Below are positions 2,925 through 8,135 of a stretch of 64,000 nt of DNA, one piece after another (positions within the stretch are counted from its first letter, which is position 1; every line of letters begins with the position of its first letter). Location of the stretch: the NCBI RefSeq assembly GCF_003201815.1, contig NZ_QJKB01000001.1:1054001-1118000 (forward strand), in the 5' to 3' direction. Below the pieces are notes generated by a model. That model had not been told where the DNA came from and did not search any database. It saw only the letters and a list, made by a program, of their open reading frames with translations. The DNA is from Undibacterium pigrum. Its GTDB lineage: Bacteria > Pseudomonadota > Gammaproteobacteria > Burkholderiales > Burkholderiaceae_D. The translations under genes were made by a program, and so were the position numbers.

Positions 2925-3995
2925 ATGAAATATCCAGAACTACTCGACTTCCCGGAGGCTTTCAAAAGACGCGCAAAATTTGATGCCATCATCGATGTGC
3001 GCAGCCCGGCAGAATTTGCTGAAGACCATATTGCCCATGCCATCAATTGCCCGGTGCTGGATAATGAAGAACGCATTATCGTAGGCACCATGTACAAGCA
3101 AGTTGGCGCATTTGAAGCCAAGCGCCTGGGCGCAGCCCTGGTAGCAAAGAATATAGGGCGACACATAGAAAACCTGTTCCAGGATAAGCCGCATGACTGG
3201 CGCCCCTTGGTTTATTGCTGGCGTGGCGGCAACCGCAGTGGCGCCATGGCGCATATCATGGCAAAAATAGGCTGGCCGGTAGCGCAATTGAATGGTGGAT
3301 ACAAGGCCTACCGTCATTACGTCAATCAAAGCCTGAGTTCTGAAGCTCAGCAATTTCAATGGCAGGTATTATGTGGCCCAACCGGTAGTGGTAAAAGTCG
3401 CAGCTTGCAGACCCTTGCAAATTTGGGCGCACAAGTCCTGGACCTGGAACAACTGGCGGCCCATAGAGGTTCGGTTTTTGGCGGCATACCTGAATATACG
3501 CAACCATCTCAAAAGCAGTTTGAAAGTCGCATTTTCGAGAAATTGCAAGAATTCAATGCGCAGAAAATTATTTACGTAGAAGCAGAAAGCAAAAAAATTG
3601 GCAGCCTGCGCATACCGGAGAGTCTCATGCATGCCATGCGCGCCTCAGCTTGCCTGCGGCTCACACTTCCAATGGAGAAAAGAGTAGCTTTGCTGACTGA
3701 AGAATATGCTCACTTCATGCGTGATACAGAAAGCCTGAACAGGCAATTGCATTTTTTGACTGCATTGCATGGTAAAGAAAAGATATCACACTGGAGGCAA
3801 CTGGCAGAAGGTGGGGAACTACAGCGTCTGGTACAGGAGTTACTGGAACAACATTACGACCCTGCCTATGACAAATCTATCATAAGAAACTTTGCTGCGT
3901 ATCCCCATGCCGAAACAATAGAGCAAAATGATATTGATGAATCTGACTTCAGGCAAACAGCAAATCGTATATTAAGTCTTACTGAGCGCAAATAA
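2925..3995 (+). CDS. mnmH: tRNA 2-selenouridine/geranyl-2-thiouridine synthase
   Basis: A 356-residue protein with an N-terminal rhodanese domain (residues about 10-135; catalytic Cys98 in YCWRGGNRSG) and a C-terminal P-loop domain (GPTGSGKS, residues 151-158). This order and length match MnmH (SelU/YbbB), which first geranylates and then selenates 2-thiouridine at the wobble position of Lys, Glu and Gln tRNAs using selenophosphate. The start ATG follows 'aagagtaataaacc', a weak ribosome site. No selD or selenocysteine genes are in the window. It converges on ccoS. Identity is confident; whether selenation occurs in this cell depends on selD elsewhere. Confidence 0.94.
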   Translation: MKYPELLDFPEAFKRRAKFDAIIDVRSPAEFAEDHIAHAINCPVLDNEERIIVGTMYKQVGAFEAKRLGAALVAKNIGRHIENLFQDKPHDWRPLVYCWRGGNRSGAMAHIMAKIGWPVAQLNGGYKAYRHYVNQSLSSEAQQFQWQVLCGPTGSGKSRSLQTLANLGAQVLDLEQLAAHRGSVFGGIPEYTQPSQKQFESRIFEKLQEFNAQKIIYVEAESKKIGSLRIPESLMHAMRASACLRLTLPMEKRVALLTEEYAHFMRDTESLNRQLHFLTALHGKEKISHWRQLAEGGELQRLVQELLEQHYDPAYDKSIIRNFAAYPHAETIEQNDIDESDFRQTANRILSLTERK

Positions 3996-4018
3996 GCGAA
4001 CGCGTAAAAAAGAACACC

Positions 4019-4162
4019 TCAACCATCAAGGTCATCAACTATCCTTTGCCCCTGGTCTTCCAGATCATCGAATTGTTTGTGATTGACTGCCCACCAGAAT
4101 ACGGCACCAATGGCAAACACCAGCACCAGACTTAGAGGTATCAATAAATAAAGGATGTCCAT
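4019..4162 (-). CDS. ccoS: cbb3-type cytochrome oxidase assembly protein CcoS
   Basis: A 47-residue membrane protein. It starts MDILYLLIPLSLVLVFAIG, giving one transmembrane helix (about residues 4-24), and continues VFWWAVNHKQFDDLE and DQGQRIVDDL. The FWWA(V)xxxQFDDLExxxxRIL pattern is typical of CcoS, the small partner needed for cofactor insertion into cbb3 oxidase. It begins 16 bases downstream of the ccoI stop, on the same strand, so the two are probably cotranscribed. The oxidase structural genes ccoNOQP do not follow; mnmH converges on it instead. Confidence 0.93.
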   Translation of the reverse strand: MDILYLLIPLSLVLVFAIGAVFWWAVNHKQFDDLEDQGQRIVDDLDG

Positions 4163-4178
4163 AATTTTCTTGTTACCC

Positions 4179-6458
4179 CTATCTCAATCCTGCATCAGAT
4201 TCCGGTATCAGATACGCAGGCTGCTCCAGCAAATATAATCGCAGCGCATTAAGGACCACAATCAACGAACTCAATGACATCCCCAGAGCAGCATGCCAGG
4301 GTTCCAGCAAACCACTCATGGCAGCCGGTATCGCAAATAAATTATATAGTACTGCCCAGGCCAGATTTTCGCGTATCAGCCGGTAAGCTTTGCTGGCAAC
4401 TGTCATTCCAAAGTCCAGATCAAGCAAGCGATTTGACATCAGCAATACATCGCTGCGCGACTGTGAAATGGGAGCGCCCTGCCCCATCGCAACCGACACA
4501 TCAGCCAGTGCCAATACCGGTCCGTCATTCATGCCATCACCAACCATGACCACCGTCGCACCATCTGCCTGCAGCTTTTGCACTATGGCGTATTTACCTG
4601 CGGGACTAAGGCCAGCGTGCGCCGCCTGAATATCACATTGTGCAGCGACTTTATTAACCACATCCTGCCTGTCGCCCGACAGCAGCAATATTTGCTTACC
4701 CTTGTTTTTTAAATTGCTGATAGCGGCAATCGCATCGTCACGCAATACATCATCGAGTGCAAACCAGATCAGGTTGCCATGTTCACTGGCGAGTACGCTC
4801 AGCGTCTGACCTGCAAAATTTGGTGGAATGGGTAAGTCCTGCGCATGCAAGTCACTGGCAAATTCCACGCTACCCAAACGATAGGTTTTACCTTCACATT
4901 CAGCCTCAATGCCACCACCCGGCACTTCCCTGACTTTGCTCAAGCCAGCCACATCTGCCAGCTCATGATTCGATTTTTTTTGCGCCAGATAATCACCAAT
5001 TGCCCTGGCTACCGGATGCGAAGACTGGCAGGCCAGTGCCATGGCAATTGCTTCGCTGGCAGATGCACCTTCACCATGCAGCATTTCCCTGACCTGCAAT
5101 TTACCCATGGTCAGCGTGCCAGTTTTGTCAAAGACTATATGTGTTGCCATTGCCATGGCTTGTATGGCTTTTGATTTTGCCAGCAACACCCCATTTTTAG
5201 CCAGCATGCCTATGGCTGCAGACATGACACCCGGCGTTGCCAGAGACAAGGCACATGGGCAGGTTACGACGATGATACTGATAGCTATCCACAAGGAACG
5301 ACCAGGATCAATTTGCCACCAGACTATGCCGCTGATAAAAGCCAGCACAAGAATAATGATCAGAAAACGGCTGGCATGTTTATCTGCAAGCAAAACCAGA
5401 GGTGGTTTTTCCAGTGATGCAGACTCCATCATGGCTATCAGTGCTGACAGCTGAGTTGCACCGCCCACCTCTTTGGCCTGCATCACCAAAGCACCCTGAA
5501 GATTCACAGCACCCGCCAGCACATTACTGCCCTTGGATTTATTGACAGGTAAAGATTCACCGGTCATCAATGCCTCATCGCAACTGCTATCGCCAGTAAT
5601 GACCACACCATCAGCAGGAATATGCTCACCCGCAGCAACAAGCAAATAATCTCCAGCTTGCAAGCTGGCCACATCTACCGTTTCAGTCGCCACTTGCGGA
5701 TATGCAAGAAAACGTTGCGCCATTGCCGGCGACAATTGCGTCAATATTCTCAATGCAGCGGTCGTGCGTTTTTGTACCCTGGATTCAATCAGCCGCGCAC
5801 CAAGCAACAAGAATACAAACATGATGGCTGAGTCAAAATACACAGCACCACCATGAAACGTTGCCCAGACGCTGGCGAAAAAAGTCAGCAATATGCCGAG
5901 AGAAACTGGCACATCCATGCCTATGTGGCGATTTTTCAAATCACGCCAGGCAGAAGAGAAGAAAGGTGATGCTGAAAAACCGATGACAGGCACGGCAATA
6001 ATCATGCTGGCCAGCTTGAGCAGCTTATCCACATCTGGTGTCAGGTCTCCATCAATTTGCGGTACAGGAACCAGATAAGCAGGAAAGGCATACATCATGA
6101 CTTGCATCATGGCAAAACCAGCCACAAACAAACGCCATAAGGCGCGCTTGTTTTCTTTTTGCTCTAGCTCATCAAGCGATTGACTGGCTGGCAAGGCACC
6201 ATAACCAAGATCAGTAATGGCTGCGAGAATACGCTTGAATGTCAGTGACTGAGTATCCCAGGTGATATCGGCACGATGACTTGCAGGATGGATTTTGAAT
6301 GAAGTAACGCCCGGCAACTGCCTGATACGAAATTCAATTAATTGCACACAGGCGGCGCAGCGCATGCCAGACAAATTCAGTTTTTCAGAAACAAGCTGCT
6401 GATCTATAGAACCAGGGGCAGGCAATGCGTAATGGGGATCCATATCATTAACCGACAA
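4179..6458 (-). CDS. ccoI: Copper-translocating P-type ATPase CcoI/FixI, main part
   Basis: A P1B-type ATPase that supplies copper for assembly of cbb3 cytochrome oxidase. Visible in order: an HMA-type domain with GMRCAAC (C34, C37), about eight transmembrane helices, the actuator loop TGES (about 299-302), the ion-binding CPC motif (400-402), the phosphorylation site DKTGT (444-448), the hinge GDGMNDGP and C-terminal helices. The frame begins at a TTG that overlaps the end of the upstream fragment; the first ATG is five codons later. Full-length CcoI normally carries an extra N-terminal Cys-rich domain in the same chain. Here that domain is encoded just upstream in another frame, so the gene appears to be split by a one-base shift. 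Confidence 0.9.
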   Translation of the reverse strand: MSVNDMDPHYALPAPGSIDQQLVSEKLNLSGMRCAACVQLIEFRIRQLPGVTSFKIHPASHRADITWDTQSLTFKRILAAITDLGYGALPASQSLDELEQKENKRALWRLFVAGFAMMQVMMYAFPAYLVPVPQIDGDLTPDVDKLLKLASMIIAVPVIGFSASPFFSSAWRDLKNRHIGMDVPVSLGILLTFFASVWATFHGGAVYFDSAIMFVFLLLGARLIESRVQKRTTAALRILTQLSPAMAQRFLAYPQVATETVDVASLQAGDYLLVAAGEHIPADGVVITGDSSCDEALMTGESLPVNKSKGSNVLAGAVNLQGALVMQAKEVGGATQLSALIAMMESASLEKPPLVLLADKHASRFLIIILVLAFISGIVWWQIDPGRSLWIAISIIVVTCPCALSLATPGVMSAAIGMLAKNGVLLAKSKAIQAMAMATHIVFDKTGTLTMGKLQVREMLHGEGASASEAIAMALACQSSHPVARAIGDYLAQKKSNHELADVAGLSKVREVPGGGIEAECEGKTYRLGSVEFASDLHAQDLPIPPNFAGQTLSVLASEHGNLIWFALDDVLRDDAIAAISNLKNKGKQILLLSGDRQDVVNKVAAQCDIQAAHAGLSPAGKYAIVQKLQADGATVVMVGDGMNDGPVLALADVSVAMGQGAPISQSRSDVLLMSNRLLDLDFGMTVASKAYRLIRENLAWAVLYNLFAIPAAMSGLLEPWHAALGMSLSSLIVVLNALRLYLLEQPAYLIPESDAGLR

Positions 6459-6690
6459 CAGACTGGCTGGCTTTATTTTTCATATAGTCATTTACCAGAT
6501 TATTTTGCTCAACTGTACGCAGGATGGCGAGACATCCATGACAACAAACTGGCTGTAGCTGACCATTGAACCGGGCTGCCAGTGCATTGCTTTTGCGCAT
6601 TTTTTCACCACAATGAAAACAGTCTGTCTTCTCTCCTGTTTTAAAAGAAAAGAGAACAGATTCAAGAAGTGATGAAAATGCAGAAGCCAT
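6448..6690 (-). CDS. ccoI: N-terminal metal-binding part of CcoI, out of frame with the rest
   Basis: A fragment of about 80 residues with CFHCG (C28, C31 counted from a TTG four codons upstream) and CCHGC (53-57). This is the Cys-rich N-terminal domain found at the front of CcoI/FixI ATPases. It stops 11 bases inside the main ccoI frame. Deleting one A from the A5 run on the minus strand (bases 6476-6480) would join the two frames without a stop and give a protein of about 830 residues, the usual CcoI size. Possible causes are a sequencing indel, a real mutation, slippage, or two separately translated coupled chains. The ATG at 6690 is preferred over the TTG at 6702 only because ATG is more usual. 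Confidence 0.75.
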   Translation of the reverse strand: MASAFSSLLESVLFSFKTGEKTDCFHCGEKMRKSNALAARFNGQLQPVCCHGCLAILRTVEQNNLVNDYMKNKASQSVVG

Positions 6691-6721
6691 GTACTCAAGC
6701 AAGAAGCATATGAAAGAAGTT

Positions 6722-6769
6722 GATTTTGATATTACAGGAAGGAAAATGAAGATACTTGATGCACATCAA
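6722..6769 (-). promoter_or_regulatory. FNR/Anr-type promoter of ccoI
   Basis: A perfect FNR half-site pair, TTGAT-GCAC-ATCAA (bases 6756-6769), reads into ccoI. A TAATAT hexamer on the same strand (6734-6729) lies where the -10 box of a class II FNR promoter should be, with the FNR site centred about 41 bases before the inferred start near 6722. The ccoI start codon is 32 bases (ATG) or 20 bases (TTG) further on. Low-oxygen induction of cbb3 oxidase maturation genes by FNR/Anr is well established. Confidence 0.85.
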
Positions 6770-6792
6770 GTATGACTACAGAAATTCAGACA

Positions 6793-6820
6793 TAAAAAAA
6801 CGGTAGCATTGCACTACCGT
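6793..6820 (-). terminator. Intrinsic terminator of the rluC-sppA operon
   Basis: Read leftward, ACGGTAG pairs with CTACCGT around a 7-base loop and is followed by a run of seven T. The left A-run and right T-rich side make it weakly bidirectional. It ends any transcript from sppA before it can enter the ccoI promoter. Confidence 0.85.
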
Positions 6821-7151
6821 TTCTTTTACTTCATGGATGCTTAAGACTACATTACTGCTACCACTGTTGCTAACTTAGCGAGGAATCCAAGACACCTCAG
6901 ATCCGTAAACCAAACGGATGGGCACTGCACAAATTGTAGATCTATCCACTTCATTAATAACCGGCACACAAGACATTACCGGAGCTCAAATTCAATCCGC
7001 CTAGGATACAAAAAACAATTTTGTATATCGACCTCCTTCTTTTGAACCAGTTACGCCCCTAATATATGCCAACTCATTAACGAGTGAAAGAAAAAAATAA
7101 CTATGTAAGCAGCCAACCAGATTAAGAAAATCAACCAAACAAAATAGCTAA
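6821..7151 (-). other. Long 3' untranslated region after sppA, possible small RNA
   Basis: About 330 bases with no convincing coding frame lie between the sppA stop and its terminator. Two further hairpins are visible: ATACAAAA with TTTTGTAT (7006-7026) and ATCCGT with ACGGAT (6901-6919). On the minus strand a perfect AAGGAGGT occurs at 7038-7031 but leads only to a five-codon TTG frame. The region could be a 3'-UTR-derived RNA. No known RNA family was recognised. Confidence 0.4.
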
Positions 7152-8135
7152 TTAGCGCATGCTGGGAGTATTTCCCTTCAACAAGGTAGTTGCAGCACCG
7201 GCACCGACGGAAGCACCAAATTTCTTCAAGACGCGCTCTGGCAAGCCTTCTTTCTGGGTGTAATCAACAATGTTTTCGACCTTGATGACATCTCGCGCCA
7301 CCGAATCCACAGATCCAAAATCATCTGCCAGCCCCATTTGGACAGCCTTGCTGCCTATCCAGAAAAGACCAGAAAACATATCTGGAGTTTCTTTCAAACG
7401 CTGACCGCGGCCAGCACGCACCGTATCAATGAATTGCTGATGAATTTCATTGAGCATGGCTTGAGAAAATGCCTTTTGTTTTTCTGTTTGCGGCGAGAAC
7501 GGGTCCATAAAACCTTTGTTTTCACCTGCAGTCATGAGGCGACGTTCAACACCCAGTTTGTCCATCAAACCGGTAAAGCCGAATCCATCCATAAGTACGC
7601 CTATAGAACCAACAACACTGGCTTTATTGACGAAAATTTTATCTGCTGCAACGGCAATGTAATAACCGCCAGATGCGCAAATTTCATCAACGACGACATA
7701 CAGTTTTTTATCTGGATATTCTTTGCGCAACCTGCCCATTTCATCATTGATCATGCCTGCCTGCACGGGGCTGCCGCCAGGGCTATTGATACGTACGACA
7801 ACGGCAACAGAGCCAGGGTCAGCAAAGGCCCGGTTCAAGGCTGGTATAACAGCGTGGGCGCTGCCAGTGCCTTCAGATTCGATAGTGCCATCAATTTCTA
7901 TCAAGGCAGTGTGATGCCCCAGGTTTTCCATCTCACCGGTTGCATAATCGCTGAAATAGTAAAACGCGAAAATAATGACCGACAACAATGCAAATCTGAA
8001 AAAGATACTCCAGCGTCTGCGCAAGCGTTGCTCACGCAAGGAATCGGTCGCCAGTTTTTCCAGCAGTTGACGTTCCCAGCCAGTTTCTTTTTTATCGATT
8101 TCGCTCACTGGCGAACTCGGAAATTGCTCATTCAT
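7152..8135 (-). CDS. S49 family peptidase, SppA-like
   Basis: A 327-residue inner-membrane serine protease of the signal peptide peptidase A family. It has one transmembrane helix (about residues 45-64) after a cytoplasmic N-terminus. The catalytic Ser is S155 in DEICASGGYYIA, and the general-base Lys is probably K207 in AGENKG. These form the Ser/Lys dyad of SppA, which degrades cleaved signal peptides and some membrane proteins. The length matches the short single-domain form rather than the 600-residue E. coli protein. It starts 15 bases after the Rieske gene stop, at the end of an apparent rluC-HAD-Rieske-S49 operon. Confidence 0.92.
   Translation of the reverse strand: MNEQFPSSPVSEIDKKETGWERQLLEKLATDSLREQRLRRRWSIFFRFALLSVIIFAFYYFSDYATGEMENLGHHTALIEIDGTIESEGTGSAHAVIPALNRAFADPGSVAVVVRINSPGGSPVQAGMINDEMGRLRKEYPDKKLYVVVDEICASGGYYIAVAADKIFVNKASVVGSIGVLMDGFGFTGLMDKLGVERRLMTAGENKGFMDPFSPQTEKQKAFSQAMLNEIHQQFIDTVRAGRGQRLKETPDMFSGLFWIGSKAVQMGLADDFGSVDSVARDVIKVENIVDYTQKEGLPERVLKKFGASVGAGAATTLLKGNTPSMR

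Follow-up and report, generated by a model that had tools for sequence, protein, structure and literature searches.

Separate, adjacent genes for the N-terminal metal-binding domain and the ATPase core of CcoI in Undibacterium and its relatives

The ccoI locus of Undibacterium pigrum

The window analysed here, a stretch of 64,000 nucleotides from the genome of Undibacterium pigrum, carries on its minus strand the genes ccoI-N, ccoI core and ccoS in that order, with a gap of 4 bases between the first two when both are started at their ATG codons. The first, ccoI-N (6448..6690, ATG at 6690), encodes a stand-alone Cys-rich metal-binding domain of 80 residues (CFHCGE...CCHGC) that matches PF12156 (E 2.4e-12, 47.9 bits against a cut-off of 27), and this is the single PF12156 match in the whole genome. 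The second, the ccoI core (4179..6443, ATG at 6443), encodes 754 residues without PF12156 and has the features of a CcoI/FixI P1B ATPase, namely an HMA domain, a membrane CPC motif and a DKTGT phosphorylation motif; it matches the Pfam families HMA (PF00403), E1-E2 ATPase (PF00122) and hydrolase (PF00702), and both TIGR01525 and TIGR01511 above their cut-offs. In most of the CcoI proteins sampled the PF12156 and HMA domains belong to one chain; here PF12156 has an ORF of its own. Directly downstream of the core, also on the minus strand, lies a gene for 47 residues (4019..4162) that we take to be ccoS from the sequence pattern of its translation. In trees rooted on one CopA-type sequence of the same genome (L003), with other P1B subfamilies outside the tree, the core groups with CcoI and not with CopA. 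The other P-type ATPases of the genome that the core query found (L002-L007) have no N domain by profile.

The initial annotation had placed the Cys-rich N-terminal domain and the ATPase core in different frames, as both the ORFs and the Pfam matches bear out. It had also described an 11-base overlap, which holds for the minus-strand ORFs at 6448-6702 and 4179-6458 because these are counted from TTG codons; the ATG starts give the 4-base gap instead. The N stop, the 4 bases and the core start together form the junction TAATGATATG (6441..6450, minus strand). A run of five A residues on the coding strand (6476..6480, T5 on the forward strand) is present as described, and removal of one base would indeed yield a protein of normal length, 836 residues by coordinates alone.

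Upstream, on the same strand, the window has an exact TTGATN4ATCAA box, TTGATGTGCATCAA (6756..6769), 79 bases before the ccoI-N ATG, and we take its consensus to be that of FNR/ANR. Such a box was found in exact form at 4 of 50 split loci and by a relaxed pattern at 8 of 50, the window included. A hairpin (ACGGTAG-TGCAATG-CTACCGT, followed by a T run; 6794-6820, minus strand) sits in the gap of about 460 bases between ccoI-N and a presumably sppA-like gene (7152-8135); it could terminate a transcript or form the end of a small RNA. An Rfam search of 3900-8000, the hairpin region included, gave no match.

Distribution of split and fused genes

The split was found in 23 of the 25 genomes of the genus sample (G000-G024), comprising the window genome, 21 loci and G007, with the core used to search the 24 further genomes; one locus (L029) is counted as split although the strict N motif missed it. 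Among these 23 are the single-contig genomes G005, G014 and G016. One of the two remaining genomes, G011, yielded neither ccoI nor FixO, and in the other, G015, ccoI (L137) is fused, belongs to another lineage and groups among the fused genes, which looks like a gene replacement. FixO and L137 are a few kb apart, and the matches listed for G015 include no split copy. A check proposed at the outset was that unbroken, fused genes throughout the close relatives would point to mutation or error; the result was the opposite, with G015 the one exception in the genus. Among the best 80 named loci (Undibacterium, Glaciimonas, Sapientia, other Oxalobacteraceae, Comamonadaceae and MAGs) 40 are split, 4 are fused, 35 are without the N domain and 1 is undecided at a contig end; many of these loci belong to the same species as genomes of the genus sample, and related loci are not independent observations. 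One of the MAG loci (L043) has an intact N gene, but its core gene is interrupted within or upstream of the ATPase part.

In the family sample, PF12156 was present in 100 of 145 genomes, and 20 of these 100, from six genera, have a short stand-alone PF12156 ORF away from a contig edge. Nineteen of the 20 cases were retrieved, the core was present in 17 of the pieces, and all 17 are split. In a second family, f3, each of the four genomes examined (G026, G473, G553 and G589) carries the split; G589 has a fused copy besides the split one, and a contamination of 6%.

Beyond these groups PF12156 is otherwise fused in the phylum-wide sample, judged by open-frame lengths: it occurs in 118 of 249 genomes, and above the cut-off the only frames shorter than 190 residues are those of the window genome and of G356. 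The latter is cut by its contig (the match spans 7197-7346 of 7352 bases) and was rejected as a split, as was G756 (L165), whose short PF12156 frame stands at a contig edge; G047 and G104 were set aside as edge matches by coordinates alone, and in G702 (L166) the gene looks fused, with a stop codon shortly downstream of the HMA motif. A fission wider than the split clade was accordingly rejected, short frames at contig edges not being counted as splits, and the extent given here also excludes other short or middling frames (G144, G130, G442, G400, G568, G455, G472 and others). In the order sample the N-chain profile matches 240 of 399 genomes, and the best stand-alone cases among the matches listed are three Undibacterium genomes, G793 and G026. 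The first 3000 bases of G793 are those of L064, a MAG labelled Gallionellales that itself falls within the split clade; this points to transfer or contamination. Together with L065 and L071, from MAGs labelled Nitrosomonadales and Proteobacteria, the L064 split unit forms one group within the Oxalobacteraceae split clade; either the two-gene unit was transferred or these are contaminant contigs.

The distance to the oxidase gene FixO, found in 40 of 43 genus genomes, varies among split loci. In the window genome FixO (G000:C1:173664) is 884 kb from the ccoI unit and in G005 about 110 kb; it is about 4 kb away in seven split genomes (G070, G102, G157, G116, G093, G124 and G026), 15 kb away in G041, more than 300 kb in G109, and on another contig in G082 and G049. 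All 12 fused family genes checked have FixO about 4-8 kb from the N domain, as do, equally close, two of three fused genes from outside the family, the third (G035) being about 20 kb off.

The junction and the two chains

Four explanations of the broken frame had been offered initially: an assembly error, a disabling mutation, slippage at the A5 run, and a true two-chain CcoI. Either of the first two, confined to this genome, would agree with the ease with which a single-base change restores one open frame of normal length, but the split is found in independently assembled relatives (G005, G014 and G016 among them) and in relatives that have no A5 run, and both parts appear to be under purifying selection. 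We leave these two explanations practically no weight.

The junctions themselves differ from species to species. Relative to the N frame, the core frame of split loci is shifted by +1 or +2, or is identical with an intervening stop codon; the open overlap ranges from none or 4-5 bases to more than 200; and the N stop may be TAA, TAG or TGA. The A5 is missing at the equivalent position of L038 and L043, whose split and frame relation match those of the window; L009 and L010 do carry it. The A5 run is incidental. A programmed frameshift or transcriptional slippage that yields a fused chain, or both forms, has a precedent in E. coli copA, where a -1 frameshift is described as giving a short metal-binding product (PMC5009743), and in the window an A5 run does lie beside the open-frame overlap. 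Since frame, stop and overlap vary between species, neither a programmed frameshift nor A5 slippage is tenable: no slippery site is common to the junctions listed, no fixed frame relation was found, the A5 run is not shared, the open overlap of some species is only 4-5 bases or none, and next to the N stop stands a start codon for the core itself. A fused chain made in this way, alone or together with the short form, is very improbable. Of the four options the two-chain CcoI is the sole survivor.

Common to the split loci is a core start codon close to the end of ccoI-N: 48 of 49 (L043, with its core broken in the MAG, is for that reason outside this count) have an in-frame ATG in the interval -20..+13 bases around the N stop, against 8 and 6 of 49 for the two other frames in the same interval and 915 of 2891 (32%) for equal-size in-frame windows inside the core. 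Many junctions are ATGA or TGATG overlaps, and a start codon at the preceding stop is the usual layout of translational coupling. We read the junction TAATGATATG as a putative site of termination-reinitiation. In most loci the Shine-Dalgarno match before the core is weak or missing, which fits reinitiation and proves nothing.

Both chains look functional and, from the substitution patterns, under purifying selection. For the N chain, dN/dS is defined in 15 of 19 pairs and takes values of 0-0.18; for the core it is 0.04-0.21 in 16 of 19 pairs. These values are rough, many dS being near or above 1, and give no sign of the relaxed selection of a pseudogene. Seven residues of the N chain (five Cys, one His and one Tyr) are invariant in all 33 aligned rows, the window included, and also in all of 24 N chains, a set that overlaps the 33. 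Distances in the N chain and in the core are correlated across 41 loci (r 0.85; none of 2000 permutations as high), a correlation also expected from shared descent alone.

The N chain is predicted to be folded, with block-mean pLDDT of 95-98 over residues 21-70 and lower values at both ends. Its structural matches are weak: Foldseek gave a best E of 0.22, its rows including a TRASH domain, ranked second, and chains of the large ribosomal subunit (one labelled L24E), and a structure comparison gave a best Z of 5.0. By sequence the chain matches the TRASH family PF24273 at 0.0062, short of that family's cut-off, has no solved structure below E 0.24 and falls in no NCBIfam family. A treble-clef fold of the TRASH/L24e kind is no more than a lead.

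Descent, proposed working and known systems

At the level of the genes, the comparison shows the PF12156 domain and the HMA-ATPase core to be separate, conserved and adjacent across a clade that takes in Undibacterium, Glaciimonas, Sapientia and other Oxalobacteraceae, and in a second family, f3. In a quick tree of the core only, the split rows form one group with an SH-aLRT of 90 when L030 is included and 100 when it is left out. A more careful core-only tree, with fewer rows and without L142 and L143, gives the split group values of 87/50 and recovers it in 86% of bootstrap trees, the bootstrap not having settled; it also joins split and domain-less rows into one clade (100/97), a join that the quick tree left open, and places the fused genes of family f1, whose position the quick tree likewise left open, outside that clade. 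On these values family f3 and the Oxalobacteraceae may share a single fission. Judged by these sequences, the split is an old and fixed fission of ccoI.

The domain-less rows come from Comamonadaceae and relatives and account for the 35 loci without PF12156 (L078, L081-L100, L102-L112, L114, L115 and L117). When the domain was sought elsewhere in nine Comamonadaceae-type genomes it was found in none, and the fused Microbulbifer control was found; the domain is therefore dispensable somewhere. With split and domain-less rows in one clade and a sister lineage without the domain, a passage from fused to detached to lost is a reasonable order, though not a proven one. The same sister group could suggest that the small chain is a vestige heading for loss, retained chiefly for the coupling of core translation to its own; dN/dS of about 0.1 and the seven invariant residues speak against this, and we think it quite improbable.

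A residue of the HMA domain changes along the same divisions. The residue two places beyond the second Cys of the HMA motif is Trp (CxxCxW) in 23 of the 26 fused rows that could be parsed, out of 28, Gln (CxxCxQ) in 38 of 39 split rows, and something else in all 13 domain-less rows. Gln is likewise found in the f3 rows L164, L173 and L174, and Trp in the fused L172; in L079, which in the careful tree is the fused row nearest to the split and domain-less clade, the Trp is already gone. In the core of the window the motif is read after CAAC. Because few independent events underlie it, the Trp/Gln mark is only a lead. It would fit a one-way path in which a fused front domain became a dissociable copper-sensing subunit acting in trans and was then lost, the HMA Trp marking the fused interface, a scheme that we put forward tentatively and consider rather doubtful.

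For the working of the two-chain CcoI we propose the following. In the window, a single mRNA would be made from an FNR/ANR-controlled promoter; a ribosome would translate ccoI-N, stop and restart at once on the core, so that both chains are made together. The 80-residue chain would fold into a small Cys/His metal-binding unit and act in trans on the cytosolic side of CcoI, either as a Cu(I)-dependent regulator or as a copper donor at the HMA domain, and the pump would then supply copper for the assembly of the cbb3 oxidase. The role of the N chain would be that of N-MBS1 within a one-chain CcoI; we infer that the N-MBS1 of Rhodobacter capsulatus corresponds to the PF12156 domain. Both N-terminal sites of R. 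capsulatus CcoI are described as mattering and neither as essential, N-MBS1 being important and its loss fully rescued by copper (PMC8475189). To the account as a whole (an old fission, both chains made together, and the small chain acting in trans on the pump) we assign a probability of about three in four.

Alternatively, the small chain might be expressed yet serve targets other than CcoI, for instance as a free chaperone for copper or zinc. This would agree with the prediction of a free-standing and folded N domain and has a parallel in the soluble front-end product of copA, described as a putative chaperone (PMC5009743). Yet the N gene directly precedes the core in the split loci examined, and this adjacency holds in Undibacterium, where the unit is far from FixO wherever the distance could be read; we regard such an independent role as unlikely.

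The two-chain CcoI appears to be real, with ordinary chemistry in an unusual arrangement. A domain that has been detached and is still under selection beside its pump, with a sister lineage that does without it, offers a natural test of what the front end does, since the N domain can be deleted, re-added, titrated or tagged and the pump left untouched. Annotators and assemblers should take care not to "repair" the apparent ccoI frameshift here. A literature search limited to open-licence papers, and hence weak evidence of absence, found no description of a split CcoI among the titles and opening lines of abstracts listed.

Among known systems the closest is CcoI/FixI itself, a P1B ATPase of the CopA2 type such as that described for R. 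capsulatus (PMC8475189), with which the unit shares identical domains in identical order, adjoining ccoS and with FixO/CcoO in the genome; several split relatives outside Undibacterium are also near FixO. It differs in that PF12156 is a separate protein and in the CxxCxQ of its HMA domain, against the CxxCxW of most fused rows. E. coli CopA, as described, resembles it in that a short metal-binding product of the N-terminal part is made separately from the copper ATPase, but there one gene and a frameshift are involved and the full-length pump keeps the domain (PMC5009743). Here there are two genes, the domain is PF12156, and the pump has no copy left. The domain of the E. coli frameshift product is of the HMA type, and CopZ is likewise an HMA-fold chaperone. 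The copA/copZ pair shares with the present unit a small metal-binding protein that has its own gene apart from the pump, but the small protein here is a PF12156 protein and derives from the pump itself.
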